Shown here one piece after another: positions 1 to 6,712 of a DNA stretch of 64,000 bases. Below the pieces are notes generated by a model that was not told the origin of the DNA, made no database searches, and worked only from the letters and a program-made list of their open reading frames with translations. Numbering within the stretch: the first letter of the stretch is position 1; the number at the start of each line of letters is the position of its first letter. The translations under genes were made by a program, and so were the position numbers. Origin of the DNA: Gloeomargaritales cyanobacterium VI4D9 (GTDB lineage Bacteria; Cyanobacteriota; Cyanobacteriia; Gloeomargaritales; Gloeomargaritaceae); assembly GCA_927797885.1 (NCBI GenBank), contig OV696605.1, positions 2,393,157 through 2,457,156 of the forward strand. The letters are read 5' to 3'.

Positions 1-788
1 AAATCCCGTTCCGCTCGAATTTCTTTCGTATTAATTAAACTTAAAACCAAACTATCAACCAAGGGCGCACGAAACTCCTCAATCAAATCCGAAACCAAAC
101 CCAAATGCCCATGATGATCCGTGTGCAAAGTTCCCACCCTCGGATCAAGTCCTTGGAACTCCACCAAAAGCAGGACATGATTCCACAGCACCTGATAGCC
201 AAAACTCAGCAGAGCATTCACCGGATTCGCTGGGGGTTGCCGGGAACGCCCCATCAACACAAACCCCTCCCCCCGCAAACATTCCCCCAACGCCGGGAAA
301 TAGATAGCCGCCGCCGCCCCCTCGATGCCCCGCACCTGGTCGAGGGTCTGGCATCGCCCCAGCCGTTCCGCCAGCCATTGCAGGGAATCAATCACCCGTT
401 CTGTCCCCGTGACCCCATAGCGCCGGTAATGACGTAATAATACTGTACGACTATTGCGGATTTTGGCACGTACGATCACTGCCGCCATTCGCACCTGCCA
501 AGCCTGGGAAGTTTGCCTTTGCGCCAGATAGCAGACCCAAGACCCCCATCCCACTGGCAACGTCCGCCCGTAACACCAACCACTGCGGGACAGATACGCC
601 AAGGGGATGTGGTGACCTAAACACGCCCGTACCGCCTGGGTGGTGATTTGCACCATACCCAAAAGCATGACCGCTTCCAGCAGAGGCAGTTGCCCGATGC
701 ACCGCCGTTGTTCGCCCCGCTTCAGGTACAGTTGCTCTGCGGATACTCCCACAACCGCTCCCTGCTCGACCAAGTACAATGTCCGCAT
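1..788 (-). CDS. cas1: CRISPR-associated integrase Cas1 (C-terminus cut by window start)
   Basis: Cas1 integrates new spacers into CRISPR arrays as a metal-dependent integrase working with Cas2. The frame stays open from the ATG at 788 to the window edge, giving 262 residues of a protein usually near 330. The N-terminus (MRTLYLVEQGAVVGV) has the beta-rich Cas1 start. The helical domain carries RGIEGAAAAIYFPAL with the conserved Glu (about residue 156). Further on are GTLHTD with the metal-binding His (about 222) and LIEEFRAPLVDSLVL with acidic residues near 237. The ATG follows directly on the stop of the upstream small membrane-protein gene (TAG then ATG), so the two are probably translated from one message. 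cas2 and the array may lie beyond the left edge. Identity is confident; the end is not visible. Confidence 0.93.
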   Translation of the reverse strand, partial: MRTLYLVEQGAVVGVSAEQLYLKRGEQRRCIGQLPLLEAVMLLGMVQITTQAVRACLGHHIPLAYLSRSGWCYGRTLPVGWGSWVCYLAQRQTSQAWQVRMAAVIVRAKIRNSRTVLLRHYRRYGVTGTERVIDSLQWLAERLGRCQTLDQVRGIEGAAAAIYFPALGECLRGEGFVLMGRSRQPPANPVNALLSFGYQVLWNHVLLLVEFQGLDPRVGTLHTDHHGHLGLVSDLIEEFRAPLVDSLVLSLINTKEIRAERD

Positions 789-1097
789 CTACAACCAGGG
801 ATCACGCTGGCGCAGGGATTCCGAAACCCGCTCGATGTCGGAGCTAATGGGTTGCGGTTGTCCTGACGGTATAGCGGAAGAACGTGGCATTAACCAAAAA
901 CACACCCCATCCATCACTGTTGCTGTCAGCCACGTTGCCCCCGTGACCAGCAATGTATTGGTCAGCACCGCCGCCAACCCCAACGGGGCAATCAGCAAAA
1001 CAATCAGCGTAATCGTGCCGTTGACCACCGCCAATACCAAATTTCGCATCTGCAACTGCCGCACGTGCAGAACCAACCACATCCCCTTGCGAGCCAT
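789..1097 (-). CDS. Small two-helix membrane protein next to cas1 (Csx18-like, tentative)
   Basis: This 102-residue protein has a basic N-terminus, two hydrophobic segments (about residues 20-44 and 46-68) and a polar, acidic/basic tail likely to face the cytoplasm. The segment VNGTITLIVLLIAPLGLAAV resembles what I remember of Csx18, a small membrane protein found beside type III CRISPR genes in cyanobacteria; no search was possible. I chose the ATG at 1097 because GAGGTGG lies about six bases upstream; an in-frame upstream start at 1157 would add 20 residues without hydrophobic character. Its stop touches the cas1 start. Its function is unknown; a membrane effector or a partner of adaptation are both possible. 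No enzymatic motif is visible. Confidence 0.65.
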   Translation of the reverse strand: MARKGMWLVLHVRQLQMRNLVLAVVNGTITLIVLLIAPLGLAAVLTNTLLVTGATWLTATVMDGVCFWLMPRSSAIPSGQPQPISSDIERVSESLRQRDPWL

Positions 1098-1291
1098 AGC
1101 CGTCCACCTCAAGCCACTTGCCCCAGTATGACTCGCCCTGGAATCGCTCCCTTCCAAGGGTTGCCCTTACCCAAGGATCAGGACAGCGGAATTGTTTCAC
1201 CATATGAAGGACTAAGTCCCCAAATCTAAAACCTCTCTGAAATTCCTGACCTTTGCCCCGGTCAATGAATTACGCTCTTCCAACAAGTCTT

Positions 1292-1297
1292 TATACT
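1292..1297 (+). promoter_or_regulatory. Possible -10 box of the cmr operon
   Basis: TATACT lies 27 bases before the cas10/cmr2 ATG, in the 226-base gap between the divergent cas1 and cmr transcription units. A convincing -35 box is not seen, so this is a weak prediction. No palindromic operator was noticed in the gap. Confidence 0.35.
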
Positions 1298-1323
1298 CAA
1301 AACATTCCCTATCCATCCTGTCT

Positions 1324-2793
1324 ATGACCTTCACGGTGATGACCTTTGCCCCCGTCCAGGGCTTCATCGAGCGTTCCCGCAAACTGCGTGACTTGTACGG
1401 TAGCTCGTTCATTTTGTCCCACCTTGCCCGTGCCCTCTGCGAAGCGGGACAGCAGGCACTGGGGGAAAATGCTCTCGTTTCACCTGCTTTAATCAACGTC
1501 ACCCAGGGGACTCCCAACCAAATCATCCTGGCCGGAGAATTCCCGGAAGCCGAAGGACGGCAGGCACTATTAGACACTTGGAAAGAAATTGTCAATCAAT
1601 GTCGCACCTGGATTGAACAGCAAATCCCCGCCGAATATACCTGGAAACGACACTGGGATTTGTGGGGAAACCACGCCTGGGAATTTTTCTGCGGGCATGG
1701 GGATACCATCACGGAAGCAAGAAAAGCGGTTAACCGAGCGAAACGCAGTCGGGATTGGGTAGGCATCAACTGGCAGGGAGAAAGTTCAACTTTGTCTGGG
1801 GCGGATGCCATTGCCTGGCCGGGGCTAGGGCGCAAACGAGACAGCCGCAATATCCGCATGAGTGATGATGATGCAGAAATCAAAGACTTTTATAAAAAAT
1901 TACAATCCCTAACCGCCTTGGGGGAAGCCTTTGTAGATGAAACGGAACAGTTGAGTATTCCCGAACTAATCAAACGCCTCGTTACCTATCATGTGGTTGC
2001 CAAACAGATTGGGATTCAAAGCGAAGTTCCGGCAAGTTTTCGGGATATTAGCCGAGAACAAAGAACCTTTTGGTTTGCTGGCGATGGGGATAGAATCGGT
2101 GAATATTTTCGGCAACTCAAAGAAAACGGCCAAGATGAAGGCAAAGTCCTCCATGAATTCAGCCAAGCCATGTTGGAATGGGGAGAAAATAAATTAAAAC
2201 CAGCAGTAGATAACAAAATTGGCCGGATTGTTTATGCCGGTGGGGATGATTTTTTAGGGGTTTTATACGAAGCAGATGCCCACAAGTTTTCACCCCACGC
2301 ATGTCTAGAGTGGTTTGCTAAGCATTTCGATCCACTTTGGAAAGAACACAAACAGAAGATTACCGTGAGTGTGGGTGCAGTCTTAGCGGGTAAACAAGTA
2401 CCCCAGCGGGATATTTTGCAACAGGCGCGGGAAGCGGAACAATCAGCCAAAAAACAAGGCCGTGACCGTCTCGCTCTGCGGGTTTTATTCAACGGGGGCA
2501 ATCACATCGAATGGGTCTGCCCCTGGAAGTTTTTAGAACCTATATTTAGCAATTATCGTGACCGAGATGGGGGTAAAAATTGGACGCATATTTACAATGA
2601 CGTGGCGGTTTTAGAATCCCGGCGAGGGTTAGCGAGTCCCGATGTGGCTCTCGCCCTTTTTGAAGTTTATTTTGGCACCCGAAACCGGCAAACACTAGAG
2701 CAAAATCCTGGTTATTACATCGGTACAGCCAGCATTTCTGATTGGGTCAGCAACTTAGCAAAAGTAGGGTTTCAACTATGTTCCAATACCTAA
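1324..2793 (+). CDS. cmr2: Type III-B Cas10 (Cmr2) lacking the HD nuclease domain
   Basis: Large subunit of the Cmr effector. It has 489 residues against roughly 800 or more for most Cmr2. The protein opens directly with the first palm-like segment (FAPVQGFIERSRKLRDLYGS), so no N-terminal HD domain and no HD motif are present. A second cyclase-type palm begins near WFAGDGDRIGEYF (residues 250-262), followed by the intact YAGGDDFLGVL motif with GGDD at 306-309. Known role of the family: on target RNA binding the GGDD palm makes cyclic oligoadenylate; the HD domain, where present, cuts DNA. From this I infer a signalling-competent protein without DNase. It is the first gene of the cmr operon; cmr3 starts inside its last codons. 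An alternative start is the ATG at 1339. Confidence 0.9.
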   Translation: MTFTVMTFAPVQGFIERSRKLRDLYGSSFILSHLARALCEAGQQALGENALVSPALINVTQGTPNQIILAGEFPEAEGRQALLDTWKEIVNQCRTWIEQQIPAEYTWKRHWDLWGNHAWEFFCGHGDTITEARKAVNRAKRSRDWVGINWQGESSTLSGADAIAWPGLGRKRDSRNIRMSDDDAEIKDFYKKLQSLTALGEAFVDETEQLSIPELIKRLVTYHVVAKQIGIQSEVPASFRDISREQRTFWFAGDGDRIGEYFRQLKENGQDEGKVLHEFSQAMLEWGENKLKPAVDNKIGRIVYAGGDDFLGVLYEADAHKFSPHACLEWFAKHFDPLWKEHKQKITVSVGAVLAGKQVPQRDILQQAREAEQSAKKQGRDRLALRVLFNGGNHIEWVCPWKFLEPIFSNYRDRDGGKNWTHIYNDVAVLESRRGLASPDVALALFEVYFGTRNRQTLEQNPGYYIGTASISDWVSNLAKVGFQLCSNT

Positions 2794-3758
2794 TCACCTT
2801 AGAGCCGTTGGGCTTTTTGTACGGGAGTGCCGGACGCTTCCTCTCCCCTGATAATTTGGTAGGCCGTGCCGGGGTCAACTTTCCCCCCAGTGCCGCCACC
2901 TTGTCCGGTCTGTTTGCCGCCCATTACGGTGCAGAAGCCATGACCATTGATACGGGCTGGATGTTTGCCGGGCCATTTTGGAGCATGGTTCAAGACCCCC
3001 AGGATTTCTATGTACCAACCCCGATGAATTGTTTCGTAAAAGATGGTCGCATTGAACAGATTTTGCACTGGAATGGCGAAACTTGGGAACCAGAAATTGG
3101 TGGTAAATTCGACAAACGAGGTTGGCTACCCATTCGCCGGTGGCTAGAGATAAATTCAGGGCAAAAAATTGAGCCTGACCCCTGGGAATTTGCCCCGCAT
3201 TTACACCCCCGTTTGGAAATAGACCAACGCCGGGTACAAGCCAATGAAACCCAAGGCAGTTTGTTCCTAGAAAATGCAGTGATGCTCAAACCCGGAGTCT
3301 GTTTAACCTACCTGAGCAGTCACCCGTTACCCGCCGGTTGGTATCGTTTTGGGGGCGAGGGACACCTGGTGAATGTGCAATGCCATGACCTGCACGCCAA
3401 CACCCAAGAACTTCTGCAAAAACCAGCGGGTAAAAACTTTGCCACCATTACCCCTGGACTATGGGGTTCCAACCGGCTGTCCTACCGCTGGCCGATGCAG
3501 GAGCAGGATCAACCGATTTGGCCTGATCCAGTGGTGCTCACCGAGCGTCCTCAACCCTATCGCTATCGCCTGGGGGGAACCGGCACTGGTCGCCGTTTAT
3601 CCCGAGGTCGCTATGCTGTCCCGGCTGGAACCGTTTATGTCCTGAAAGAACCCCTTGACCCTTGGCACACTTGGCCTGAGGCGTGGTTCCCCAGGGAGGG
3701 CTATTCCCTCAAACGTTGGGGCTGTGGACTGTCATTACCTTTACCAGACTTGAATTAA
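2778..3758 (+). CDS. cmr3: Type III-B RAMP protein Cmr3
   Basis: Cmr3 binds the crRNA 5' tag and contacts Cas10 at the foot of the Cmr complex. The 326-residue product has the family N-terminus: a RAMP beta strand (FQYLITLEPLGFLYGSAGRF) followed by LVGRAGVNFPP and PSAATLSGLFAAHYG, which corresponds to the PSxxTLxG helix of Cmr3. The ATG at 2778 overlaps the cmr2 end by 16 bases, implying coupled translation; a longer reading from 2742 would add residues with no family resemblance. A glycine- and arginine-rich stretch (RLGGTGTGRRLSRGRYAVP, about residues 269-287) may be the G-rich loop. Order and overlap in the cmr operon support the call. Confidence 0.85.
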   Translation: MFQYLITLEPLGFLYGSAGRFLSPDNLVGRAGVNFPPSAATLSGLFAAHYGAEAMTIDTGWMFAGPFWSMVQDPQDFYVPTPMNCFVKDGRIEQILHWNGETWEPEIGGKFDKRGWLPIRRWLEINSGQKIEPDPWEFAPHLHPRLEIDQRRVQANETQGSLFLENAVMLKPGVCLTYLSSHPLPAGWYRFGGEGHLVNVQCHDLHANTQELLQKPAGKNFATITPGLWGSNRLSYRWPMQEQDQPIWPDPVVLTERPQPYRYRLGGTGTGRRLSRGRYAVPAGTVYVLKEPLDPWHTWPEAWFPREGYSLKRWGCGLSLPLPDLN

Positions 3759-3776
3759 CTTGCATTAGGAGGATGT

Positions 3777-4601
3777 ATGTATCACAAAGCCTACGGCATC
3801 ATTGAAACCCTGGCACCGCTTCATGTAGGAGCTAGTGCTGGCGAAGAAACGGGCAATTTGAATTTGATTTTTCGGGATCAATTTACCCAAACGGGCATCA
3901 TTCCTGGTAGCTCGATTCGGGGGCGATTTCGTGCCGATATGCGCTCTGGGCAAAACAAGGGCGATGTGAATAAATGGTATGGACATGAAGCCGTAGCAGG
4001 GCAAACTGATGGTGGGACTACGGAAGCCTTGGTAAAATTTGAGTATGCTTCGCTGGTGTGGTTCCCAGTATTTTGTCCAGGGCAGCCGGTCGTTTGGGTT
4101 TCTTGCCCCCGTTTACTCCAACGTTATCAGATGATTACGGGTCTCAAGGAAAAAATTCCCCAACCCTATACGGCGGATAATAGCCTGCAAGCCAAGCAAT
4201 TTAGTGACCAAAAAACCACTCGTAAAATTCTATTTTTCAACCTGGGTTTTATGGAAATTGAACACAACCAAGATATGCAACCTTGGATTCCGGTCGGCAC
4301 CCATTTGCACAAAAATAGCCTGGTGGTGGTGGGGGATAATGATATTGCCATGTTGCACGATATGGGACTCTATCGGCAGAGCCGGGTCAAACTCCAAGAT
4401 GATATGAAGAAAGTGGCTGGAGGAGCATTTTTTAATGTGGAAGCCATCCCGGAAGGGAGCGTCTTTATTTTCCCCATTGGGCTGAAACAAACAGGGTGGG
4501 ATCCCTTTGCGGGGGCATCGGAACAGGAAATGTACTTTGGCGGTTTAGAATCCGTTGGTTTTGGTCGGTGTCGGGTGACGTTAGTAGGAGAATACAAATA
4601 A
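3777..4601 (+). CDS. cmr4: Type III-B backbone RAMP protein Cmr4, catalytic Asp position occupied by Asn
   Basis: Cmr4 forms the helical backbone of the effector and, in characterised systems, cuts target RNA at six-base steps with a loop aspartate. The 274-residue product has the usual start (YGIIETLAPLHVGASAGEE), the loop GNLNLIFRDQFTQTG and the glycine-rich helix cap IPGSSIRGRFR; a second Gly-rich segment (YFGGLESVGFGRCRV) is near the C-terminus. By my by-eye alignment to the xxDLPIxREKHT loop of family members, the catalytic Asp falls on Asn29; Asp34 lies nearby but replaces the Glu of PIxRE. A strong AGGAGG (3767-3772) precedes the ATG. The stop overlaps the cmr5 ATG in TAATG. Family membership is good; loss of slicing is inference. 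Confidence 0.84.
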   Translation: MYHKAYGIIETLAPLHVGASAGEETGNLNLIFRDQFTQTGIIPGSSIRGRFRADMRSGQNKGDVNKWYGHEAVAGQTDGGTTEALVKFEYASLVWFPVFCPGQPVVWVSCPRLLQRYQMITGLKEKIPQPYTADNSLQAKQFSDQKTTRKILFFNLGFMEIEHNQDMQPWIPVGTHLHKNSLVVVGDNDIAMLHDMGLYRQSRVKLQDDMKKVAGGAFFNVEAIPEGSVFIFPIGLKQTGWDPFAGASEQEMYFGGLESVGFGRCRVTLVGEYK

Positions 4602-4993
4602 TGGCTTGGCACACTTACGGTCTCGATCAGGAAGCCCAAAAACTGGTTTTGGCGGCAAAACGTCGGAATCCAGACTCTCTCAATCAGGGCTACAAAATGC
4701 GGATGGCAGTAGCCTACGGTTTGGAACGTTTTTGGGGTGAACATTTGCGATTGCAGGAGCGGGAAGCTGATAAATCTCGCTATTGGAAAGAGACCTGGGA
4801 TACGCTGGTTCGCATTGCCGGACAAGCTCATATCACCATTCCCAATGATGCTGTTCATCATAACAACGTCCAACAAATTCATGCTATGTCGCAAAGGTTG
4901 TGGAGCTTAAGTTTAGAAGACCAACGGATTGCTCTGGCGGTACTCACCCAACTGTGTGACTGCATTGTTTGGTGGACACAACGGTACAAGTAA
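4601..4993 (+). CDS. cmr5: Type III-B small subunit Cmr5
   Basis: Cmr5 is the small alpha-helical subunit lying along the target strand in the Cmr complex. The 130-residue product is helical and basic, with conserved-looking features such as GYKMRMAVAYGLERFWGEHL near the N-terminus and a Trp-rich end (LCDCIVWWTQRYK). Position and size (usual length 120-150) fit Cmr5. The ATG shares one base with the cmr4 stop. No catalytic motif is expected. The assignment rests on operon position, size and helical character more than on strong motifs. Confidence 0.78.
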   Translation: MAWHTYGLDQEAQKLVLAAKRRNPDSLNQGYKMRMAVAYGLERFWGEHLRLQEREADKSRYWKETWDTLVRIAGQAHITIPNDAVHHNNVQQIHAMSQRLWSLSLEDQRIALAVLTQLCDCIVWWTQRYK

Positions 4994-5029
4994 TTAACGC
5001 TTTATTTATCCTTAACTTTGGAGCCAATC

Positions 5030-6712
5030 ATGCCCCCCATTCCTGATGTGATCAACAAAGTCCCCATGATGTACCGGGCGCAGGTTGATGGAAGGTGTCA
5101 ATTACAACGTTTGGTGCCTAAAGCCGATGAGCAACACGCCCAACGGTGGACAAAAGAATGGACGGAACGCACCTACCCCCACGCACCGCAGTTCGGCAAA
5201 GACGTTCAAACTCGTACTTATCAAATCAGTTGGCGATTTGTGACCAATGCGGGTCAAGATGATGGGATTATCCGCCCGGTGATGGGGGCAAAGGGATGGC
5301 CTTTTTATCCGGGCAGTAGTATGAAAGGTTTATTTCGTAGTGCCTGCAATTCCCAACAAAAAAAACGCTACTGCGGTTATGAATTATCCAATGGGGACAT
5401 GGCTCCGGGAATTTTGCGCTTTCACGGTGGTTATCCTACCAATAAAAAATGGGTGGAGAAACTTCTGGATTTAGTTCATCCCCAACAGGATTATCAAGTC
5501 AAAAAAGGGAATGCTAATCATTCAGCCTTTATGATGATCTCTTTATACCAGCCGGAATTGCAATTTGGTATCTCCAGCACTGAGGATTTATCAGAGCAAG
5601 AGTGGGCAGAAATTTGGCAGATTTGGGAAAAAGCGATGGCGAAAGGACTCGGTAGCCGGGTCTGTGCCGGGTATGGACATCCCAGTAGTATCAGTGGTGA
5701 TGAATTGTATTCCCCGCACCAGATTCATGGACGGGGTATGGCTTCCAAAACCCTCAGTGGAGCCGAATTTCGCCCTAATATGTTCCGAGCCGCCATCCGA
5801 GGTCATGCCCTAAGAATTTTTGGGGGTTTAGTCCCGGCCAATATCGCTGAGAGGGAAGTAGATAAACTCTTTGGCGGACTAGGGCACGGAGAACCCATTG
5901 TTGGTTTAATTGGGATGAAATTTGTTGCGGATAATTTAACACTTGGCAGACATGGTCATGGTCGTTTTGAAGTCCGCACCTATGATGTCACTGGAAAACT
6001 CAGTTGGTTATTGACTCGCCCTTTACCGGATGTTCAGCGGGAAGCCTTGAAAAACCTGATTTTGAGGTTAAATCAATTTGCCATGATTTTGGGGGGATTT
6101 GGCAAGTCCTGGCGACGCATTGACCATCCTTTGTTTTTCCCAGAATACTACAATAAACCTAATAAATCCTACATCGGCTGTCATTGGGAATGGATGGATA
6201 AATTCCAACGGGATGTACAAATTGCCGCACCGAAACATTTACAACAATTTATGGATACCCGCTTGCTCCCAGCAGCCAAAGAGTGGCTAAGACTCCAAGG
6301 GGTTACTCTAAACAACCAATATGCCCAGGAGTGGCGGGAATCTTGGCATCCAACTAAAGTTCAAGTATGGGGGCGAATTGCTCAAGATGAAGAAGATTCG
6401 ATTGCCGTCCACTGGTTTCATCAGCCCTACTACAGCGATAATAGACAGGGCATTAAAAAAAGTATCAAAAACACTTCTTTGACTGGAAGATTAGGAACTA
6501 TTGGCCGCATCTGGCATCGGATGTACCCCAAATTCAACTTTTCTCAAGGGGATACCCCAAAAAGAACAAAGGGATATGTTGAATTGATCACGATCTTCCC
6601 AGACCAATCGCCTGAGTGCAGACAGTTTTTAACCTTCTTACAACAAGAACAACAGGACTTCCAGAAAGTTTGGCCGGTAGATACAGTAAAACCCTCTGCC
6701 GGAAAGGAATAG
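5030..6712 (+). CDS. Double-RAMP Cmr protein: Cmr6-like unit fused to a Cmr1-like unit
   Basis: At 560 residues this is about twice the length of Cmr6. The first RAMP unit has WPFYPGSSMKGLFRSAC (RAMP helix cap) and ends with the Gly-rich loop KGLGSRVCAGYGHP, both typical of Cmr6. A second unit follows: SGAEFRPNMFRAAIRGHALR, which matches the Cmr1-type 'RP..IRG..R' motif, then KLFGGLGHGEP and a second Gly-rich loop (ILGGFGKSWRRIDHP), then a C-terminal region of about 170 residues of unclear fold. No separate cmr1 is present, so one polypeptide probably supplies both head subunits. I chose the ATG at 5030; a TTG at 5018 is less likely. It is the last gene of the operon. Fusion is read from two complete RAMP cores; the Cmr1 label is inference. 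Confidence 0.8.
   Translation: MPPIPDVINKVPMMYRAQVDGRCQLQRLVPKADEQHAQRWTKEWTERTYPHAPQFGKDVQTRTYQISWRFVTNAGQDDGIIRPVMGAKGWPFYPGSSMKGLFRSACNSQQKKRYCGYELSNGDMAPGILRFHGGYPTNKKWVEKLLDLVHPQQDYQVKKGNANHSAFMMISLYQPELQFGISSTEDLSEQEWAEIWQIWEKAMAKGLGSRVCAGYGHPSSISGDELYSPHQIHGRGMASKTLSGAEFRPNMFRAAIRGHALRIFGGLVPANIAEREVDKLFGGLGHGEPIVGLIGMKFVADNLTLGRHGHGRFEVRTYDVTGKLSWLLTRPLPDVQREALKNLILRLNQFAMILGGFGKSWRRIDHPLFFPEYYNKPNKSYIGCHWEWMDKFQRDVQIAAPKHLQQFMDTRLLPAAKEWLRLQGVTLNNQYAQEWRESWHPTKVQVWGRIAQDEEDSIAVHWFHQPYYSDNRQGIKKSIKNTSLTGRLGTIGRIWHRMYPKFNFSQGDTPKRTKGYVELITIFPDQSPECRQFLTFLQQEQQDFQKVWPVDTVKPSAGKE

Follow-up and report, generated by a model that had tools for sequence, protein, structure and literature searches.

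By cutting the target RNA, Cas7 subunits are believed to switch type III signalling off and to guard the host against autoimmunity. According to the available portions of the respective papers, exchange of Asp26 for asparagine in Pyrococcus furiosus (Pfu) Cmr4 abolishes target cleavage in vitro (PMC7192623), the D26A variant of VmeCmr does not cut target RNA (PMC8682760), and all three cutting sites of the III-Dv complex depend on their aspartate (PMC11026444). The available text likewise describes that a Pyrococcus D26N strain was obtainable only with DNase and Csx1 inactivated, and that D27A is toxic in Saccharolobus (PMC7192623, PMC9368842). Both the HD-less Cas10 and effectors acting in trans are already in print; our literature term searches found no III-B lineage with an active cyclase that was described as lacking target RNA cleavage.

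We analyzed a type III-B (Cmr) operon in a 64,000-nucleotide stretch of cyanobacterial DNA (the window). Like Vme Cmr, which confers immunity by a messenger, it has a Cas10 with an intact cyclase and no HD domain; however, Vme Cmr4 retains Asp26 and slowly cuts target RNA, whereas the window Cmr4 lacks the aspartate, and NucC is encoded alongside Vme Cmr, whereas the window locus has no adjacent effector. P. furiosus Cmr and Saccharolobus islandicus Cmr-alpha share its subunit plan and palm motif, but the wild types possess both the HD domain and the Cmr4 aspartate; it is their Cmr4 mutants, Pfu D26N and S. islandicus D27A, that mimic the natural state of the window Cmr4. The Cas7 aspartate is likewise not conserved in type III systems with an inactivated palm and an apparently active HD domain, of which the window clade is the reverse. 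Assignment to subtypes III-G or III-H, for which an inactivated palm is the criterion, was rejected: GGDD and DGD are intact.

Among cyanobacterial systems, the III-B locus CRISPR3 of Synechocystis 6803 (III-Bv; Cas10 sll7090, Cmr4 sll7087) resembles the window locus: its Cmr6-type RAMP gene is long, csx18-cas1-cas2 lie on the opposite strand, the repeat ends in GAAAC, and the aspartate is missing from its Cmr4 loop, GNLLGIARE, too. Its Cas10, however, comprises 979 residues and carries an HD motif (in outgroup Cas10 proteins, HD was assigned by a plain string search of the first 150 residues), compared with 489 residues and no HD in the window, and its Cmr4 is only 32% identical and falls outside the clade. 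Judged by criteria of our own derived from the 6803 locus (a Cas10 of about 980 residues with HD and a Cmr4 of the same clade), identity with III-Bv was rejected on Cas10 size, HD and the Cmr4 tree (support 99/98). Finally, the effector-less, cyclase-positive type III loci with inter-locus signalling in the accessible parts of PMC11229360 resemble the window module in being HD-less, in having no effector of their own and in sharing their genome with a second type III locus; the window module differs in having also lost the target-cutting site, and the main text of that paper, as far as available, mentions neither Cas7 nor Cmr4.

Operon layout and Cas10

The genes cas10, cmr3, cmr4, cmr5 and cmr6 follow each other on one strand at 1324–6712 with all five reading frames intact (Table 1), and PADLOC profiles match each of them, which makes the III-B gene set complete for Cas10/Cmr2, Cmr3, Cmr4, Cmr5 and Cmr6. 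The span of the preliminary description, 1–6712, takes in cas1 and csx18 besides the operon; three integrase-family genes lie behind cmr6. NCBIfam scores fall slightly under the cut-off for Cas10 (71.7 vs 79.4 bits) and Cmr4 (TIGR02580, 79.5 vs 87), as would fit a divergent clade. The cmr6 product is a Cmr6-type RAMP that matches PDB Cmr6 weakly and in its first half, and nothing in Pfam. A separate cmr1 is absent from the operon, and a profile search of the PDB with cmr6 did not find Cmr1; the second half of the protein may be Cmr1-like. A literature term search for Csx18 together with CRISPR gave no match.

Table 1. Features of the locus; positions refer to the window.
Feature	Position	Strand	Evidence and remarks
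cas1	3..788	-	Pfam PF01867, 239 bits; cut by window edge, 262 aa inside
csx18, small CRISPR-associated protein	789..1157	-	NCBIfam NF040558, 81.5 bits (cut-off 50)
cas10/cmr2, 489 aa	1324..2793	+	ATG at 1324, stop at 2793; PADLOC PDLC02051, 651 bits over 2–488; Pfam Cmr2_N and Cas10-Cmr2_palm2
Cas10 Gly253-Asp254-Gly255-Asp256 codons	2080..2091	+	both Asp residues invariant across the 27 sequences of alignment A3
Cas10 GGDD 306–309 codons, cyclase motif	2239..2250	+	in 42/42 clade Cas10
cmr3, 326 aa from ATG at 2778	2778..3758	+	PADLOC PDLC01640, 65 bits; start common to L069
cmr4 (Cas7), 274 aa, without catalytic Asp	3777..4601	+	Pfam RAMPs, 62.5 bits; TIGR02580; PDB Cmr4 by profile and fold
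Cmr4 loop G26-NLNLIFR-D34 codons (Asn29 at 3861–3863)	3852..3878	+	GN[L/I]NLIFRD in 39/39 aligned clade members
cmr5, 130 aa	4601..4993	+	PADLOC PDLC01476, 211.5 bits
long cmr6, 564 aa from TTG; ATG at 5030	5018..6712	+	PADLOC PDLC01212, 716 bits over 13–552

The preliminary description had portrayed Cas10 as a 489-residue protein that begins at palm 1, lacks an HD domain and keeps GGDD at 306–309, and this portrayal holds throughout: Pfam places palm 1 (Cmr2_N) at residues 4–58 and palm 2 at 253–384. The stop-to-stop frame comprises 525 codons, so that at most 36 lie upstream of the ATG; since these are too few for an HD domain, none can precede the start, and a hidden upstream domain is ruled out, the gap to cas1 holding csx18 alone. 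A separately encoded HD protein, which had been named as possible counter-evidence, was seen neither within the operon nor between cas10 and cas1. The best matches to the structure model of Cas10 are Pyrococcus Cmr2 chains, with the HD-deleted 3ung, 3ur3 and 3w2v among those at the top.

This architecture is common to a cyanobacterial III-B clade, which with a near-full-length Cas10 occurs in 38 of 386 sampled genomes. HD is absent and GGDD present in all 42 Cas10 proteins compared, that is, the window, 40 loci from 37 other genomes (three with two copies) and the plasmid locus L080, some of them near copies; L078 and L081, whose cas10 is broken or split, and L079 were excluded. Ahead of the first residue of the window Cas10, these 42 proteins extend by 0–32 residues. 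GGDD is invariant, as are Asp254 and Asp256, in the 27 aligned sequences including the window; we take residues 253–256 to be the probable metal-binding strand of palm2. Among 80 named loci, the best 80 of 209 relatives picked by two peptide patterns, those with a Cas10 of at least 440 residues retain GGDD in 67 of 68 cases and GDGD in 65 of 68.

The Cmr4 loop

The loop of the window Cmr4 reads G26-N-L-N29-L-I-F-R33-D34. When the HMMER family profile is aligned with solved Cmr4 chains, Asn29 falls on the aspartate of VVDQPIQRE or NVDLPIQRE, and Asp34 on the glutamate of "RE", in all four alignments shown; the four chains represent two independent proteins, three of them being one Pyrococcus protein. 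The loop has one residue fewer in the cyanobacterial protein, and in the MAFFT alignment the gap falls on the aspartate with Asn29 beside it: The placement of the catalytic aspartate is ambiguous by one residue. Under either alignment no acidic residue lies between positions 25 and 33, the nearest being Glu23/Glu24 and Asp34. The earlier proposal that Asn29 stands where the catalytic aspartate is expected is thus borne out by the profile alignment, and shifted by one residue but equally without an acid in MAFFT, while the competing candidate Asp34 was rejected because its counterpart in the profile alignment is the conserved acid of RE/RD. The AlphaFold model does not settle the placement: Residues 19–38 have a pLDDT below 50 and the loop is disordered.

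A one-off mutation was rejected as well, since the HD-less Cas10 and the acid-free Cmr4 loop recur clade-wide. The loop acid is absent in all 36 loci with Cmr4 among the 41 selected by Cas10, a set free of loop-pattern bias (Cmr4 is absent from the fetched stretch of L054, L062, L071, L072 and L073), and in all 39 aligned clade members. The loop is also conserved in 80 of the 80 named loci, a biased count because one of the two selecting patterns was the loop GNLNLIFR itself, and numerous further residues of Cmr4 and of the palm do not vary across the clade alignments. In the Cmr4 tree, for which five near-copies were removed beforehand and long branches flagged, the clade is set apart with 99/98 support; the nearest named relative among the best 80 of 209 is L082, with 84% identity in Cmr4, and it is from this relative that the genus label Gloeomargarita is taken. 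Relative to a congener, dN/dS amounts to 0.07–0.14 across the five operon genes, indicating purifying selection; against L082, dS is saturated for three of four genes.

Could Cmr4 nevertheless cut target RNA by a rearranged site, built from Glu24, His16, the asparagine plus backbone or a neighbouring subunit, so that the complex both signals and cuts? In the two Cmr4 alignments neither Glu24 nor His16 varies, the short loop is disordered in the model, and the cyanobacterial Cmr4 of L179 and L181 has its aspartate one place along (GNILDIVRE), which shows that the position can slide. In the available text of PMC7192623, PMC8682760 and PMC11026444, however, Pfu D26N does not cut despite Glu21 at the place of Glu24, VmeCmr D26A is equally inactive and the three III-Dv sites require their aspartate; together with the acid-free stretch between residues 25 and 33, this makes a rearranged site unlikely.

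Effectors and the proposed signal

We consider it probable that the complex is an RNA-triggered second-messenger synthase that cuts nothing itself and leaves defence to CARF effectors. By analogy with its family, the crRNA-loaded Cmr3-Cmr4-Cmr5-Cmr6 body would bind a matching foreign transcript, which would turn on the palm/GGDD site of Cas10 and thereby yield a nucleotide messenger, most likely cyclic oligoadenylate given the intact motif and the CARF effectors of the clade. While the missing HD domain and Cmr4 aspartate are plain from the sequence, the corresponding loss of DNA cutting and of bound-RNA cutting is predicted; to such a complex, defence would therefore have to be supplied by CARF effectors. 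The core of the preliminary description, RNA detection and a second messenger without cutting of its own, hence appears well supported at the level of sequence. Because bound RNA would stay uncut, the signal should last while the target remains bound, and shut-off might proceed via target dissociation and ring nucleases.

Both losses are characteristic of an entire clade, and in most of its loci a CARF effector is present: An effector gene lies behind or inside the operon in 28 of the 34 loci with enough downstream sequence, genes having been called by longest reading frame, which small effectors can escape. Left out of this count are seven of the 41 loci in which cmr6 or the 3 kb past it are missing (L047, L054, L062, L063, L071, L072, L073); L047 has a SAVED_TM gene directly upstream. 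Ten of the 28 effectors, with a distant match or an unscanned representative, were rescanned with PADLOC and all proved to be CARF-HEPN. L074, one locus beyond the 28, has a divergent CARF_TM gene, and no effector was recognised in the window, L067, L069, L050 and L051. Inside the window, neither the CARF_2M model nor any of four CARF effector models, which were applied to the genome as a whole, gave a match, in agreement with the earlier remark that no CARF effector gene is visible there; in the SAVED search the controls were silent, which renders it uninformative for the window. In most of the clade, defence would thus fall to an effector whose gene directly follows the operon.

Another nucleotide such as SAM-AMP might instead signal to an unrecognised non-CARF effector, for which the effector-free window locus and the uncharacterised Csx18 adjoining cas10 could speak. 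Yet the effectors beside clade operons are CARF proteins, and no CorA-type family appeared among those recurrent neighbours for which a representative was scanned, so that we regard this as very unlikely. Decay after loss of effector and nucleases, to which the missing cis effector and the integrase-family genes could point, is the least credible alternative and was rejected on dN/dS and the array, as the dN/dS of all five genes is low and their frames intact, both losses are common to a whole clade that keeps effectors, and the array left of the window comprises 128 intact repeats with 121 different spacers, of which not one recurs among the 37 observed in the congener G085. A phage search with a 513-nt insert in this array gave no lead.

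For the synthase that we favour, candidate effectors exist in the same genome: A second III-B locus, about 0.68 Mb off, encodes CARF-RelE, CARF-HEPN (Csx1) and a Csx3-AAA ring nuclease, besides a 997-residue Cas10 with HD and GGDD; the genome also has an orphan CARF protein. The two CARF proteins would then carry out defence and Csx3-AAA would contribute to shut-off. With no effector in the window locus itself, such signalling in trans is an inference; since the second locus comes with a cyclase of its own, its effectors do not prove use by the window module. CARF7-RelE and CARF2-HEPN occur elsewhere in all five genomes with an effector-less locus, a count that comes with no base rate from cis-effector genomes, and in the congener G241 the module lies inside the second locus, flanked by csx1 and the HD-containing cas10. 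More tentatively, a widespread cyanobacterial III-B lineage may have given up target RNA cleavage for good while keeping an active cyclase, and Gloeomargarita-type genomes may also have dropped their own effector, turning the module into a free-standing, RNA-triggered alarm that relies on a neighbouring HD-containing CRISPR locus for effectors and ring nuclease.

If this is true, the lineage has abandoned the off-switch that is built into type III immunity. A clade fixed for the same loss and kept by selection amounts to a natural experiment; it would have to control the signal otherwise, by a ring nuclease, by binding its target weakly or briefly, or by tolerant effectors, and the HD-containing locus in the same genome offers a comparison that makes this question directly testable. 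A non-cutting, RNA-triggered signal generator would also be of practical interest for RNA detection.

The second III-B locus further encodes a small HD_4-domain protein (L005:9191–9799), which we guess to be a nucleotide hydrolase-type HD. Its relatives lie near clade operons in seven examined loci, only one of which (L063) belongs to the 41 selected by Cas10.

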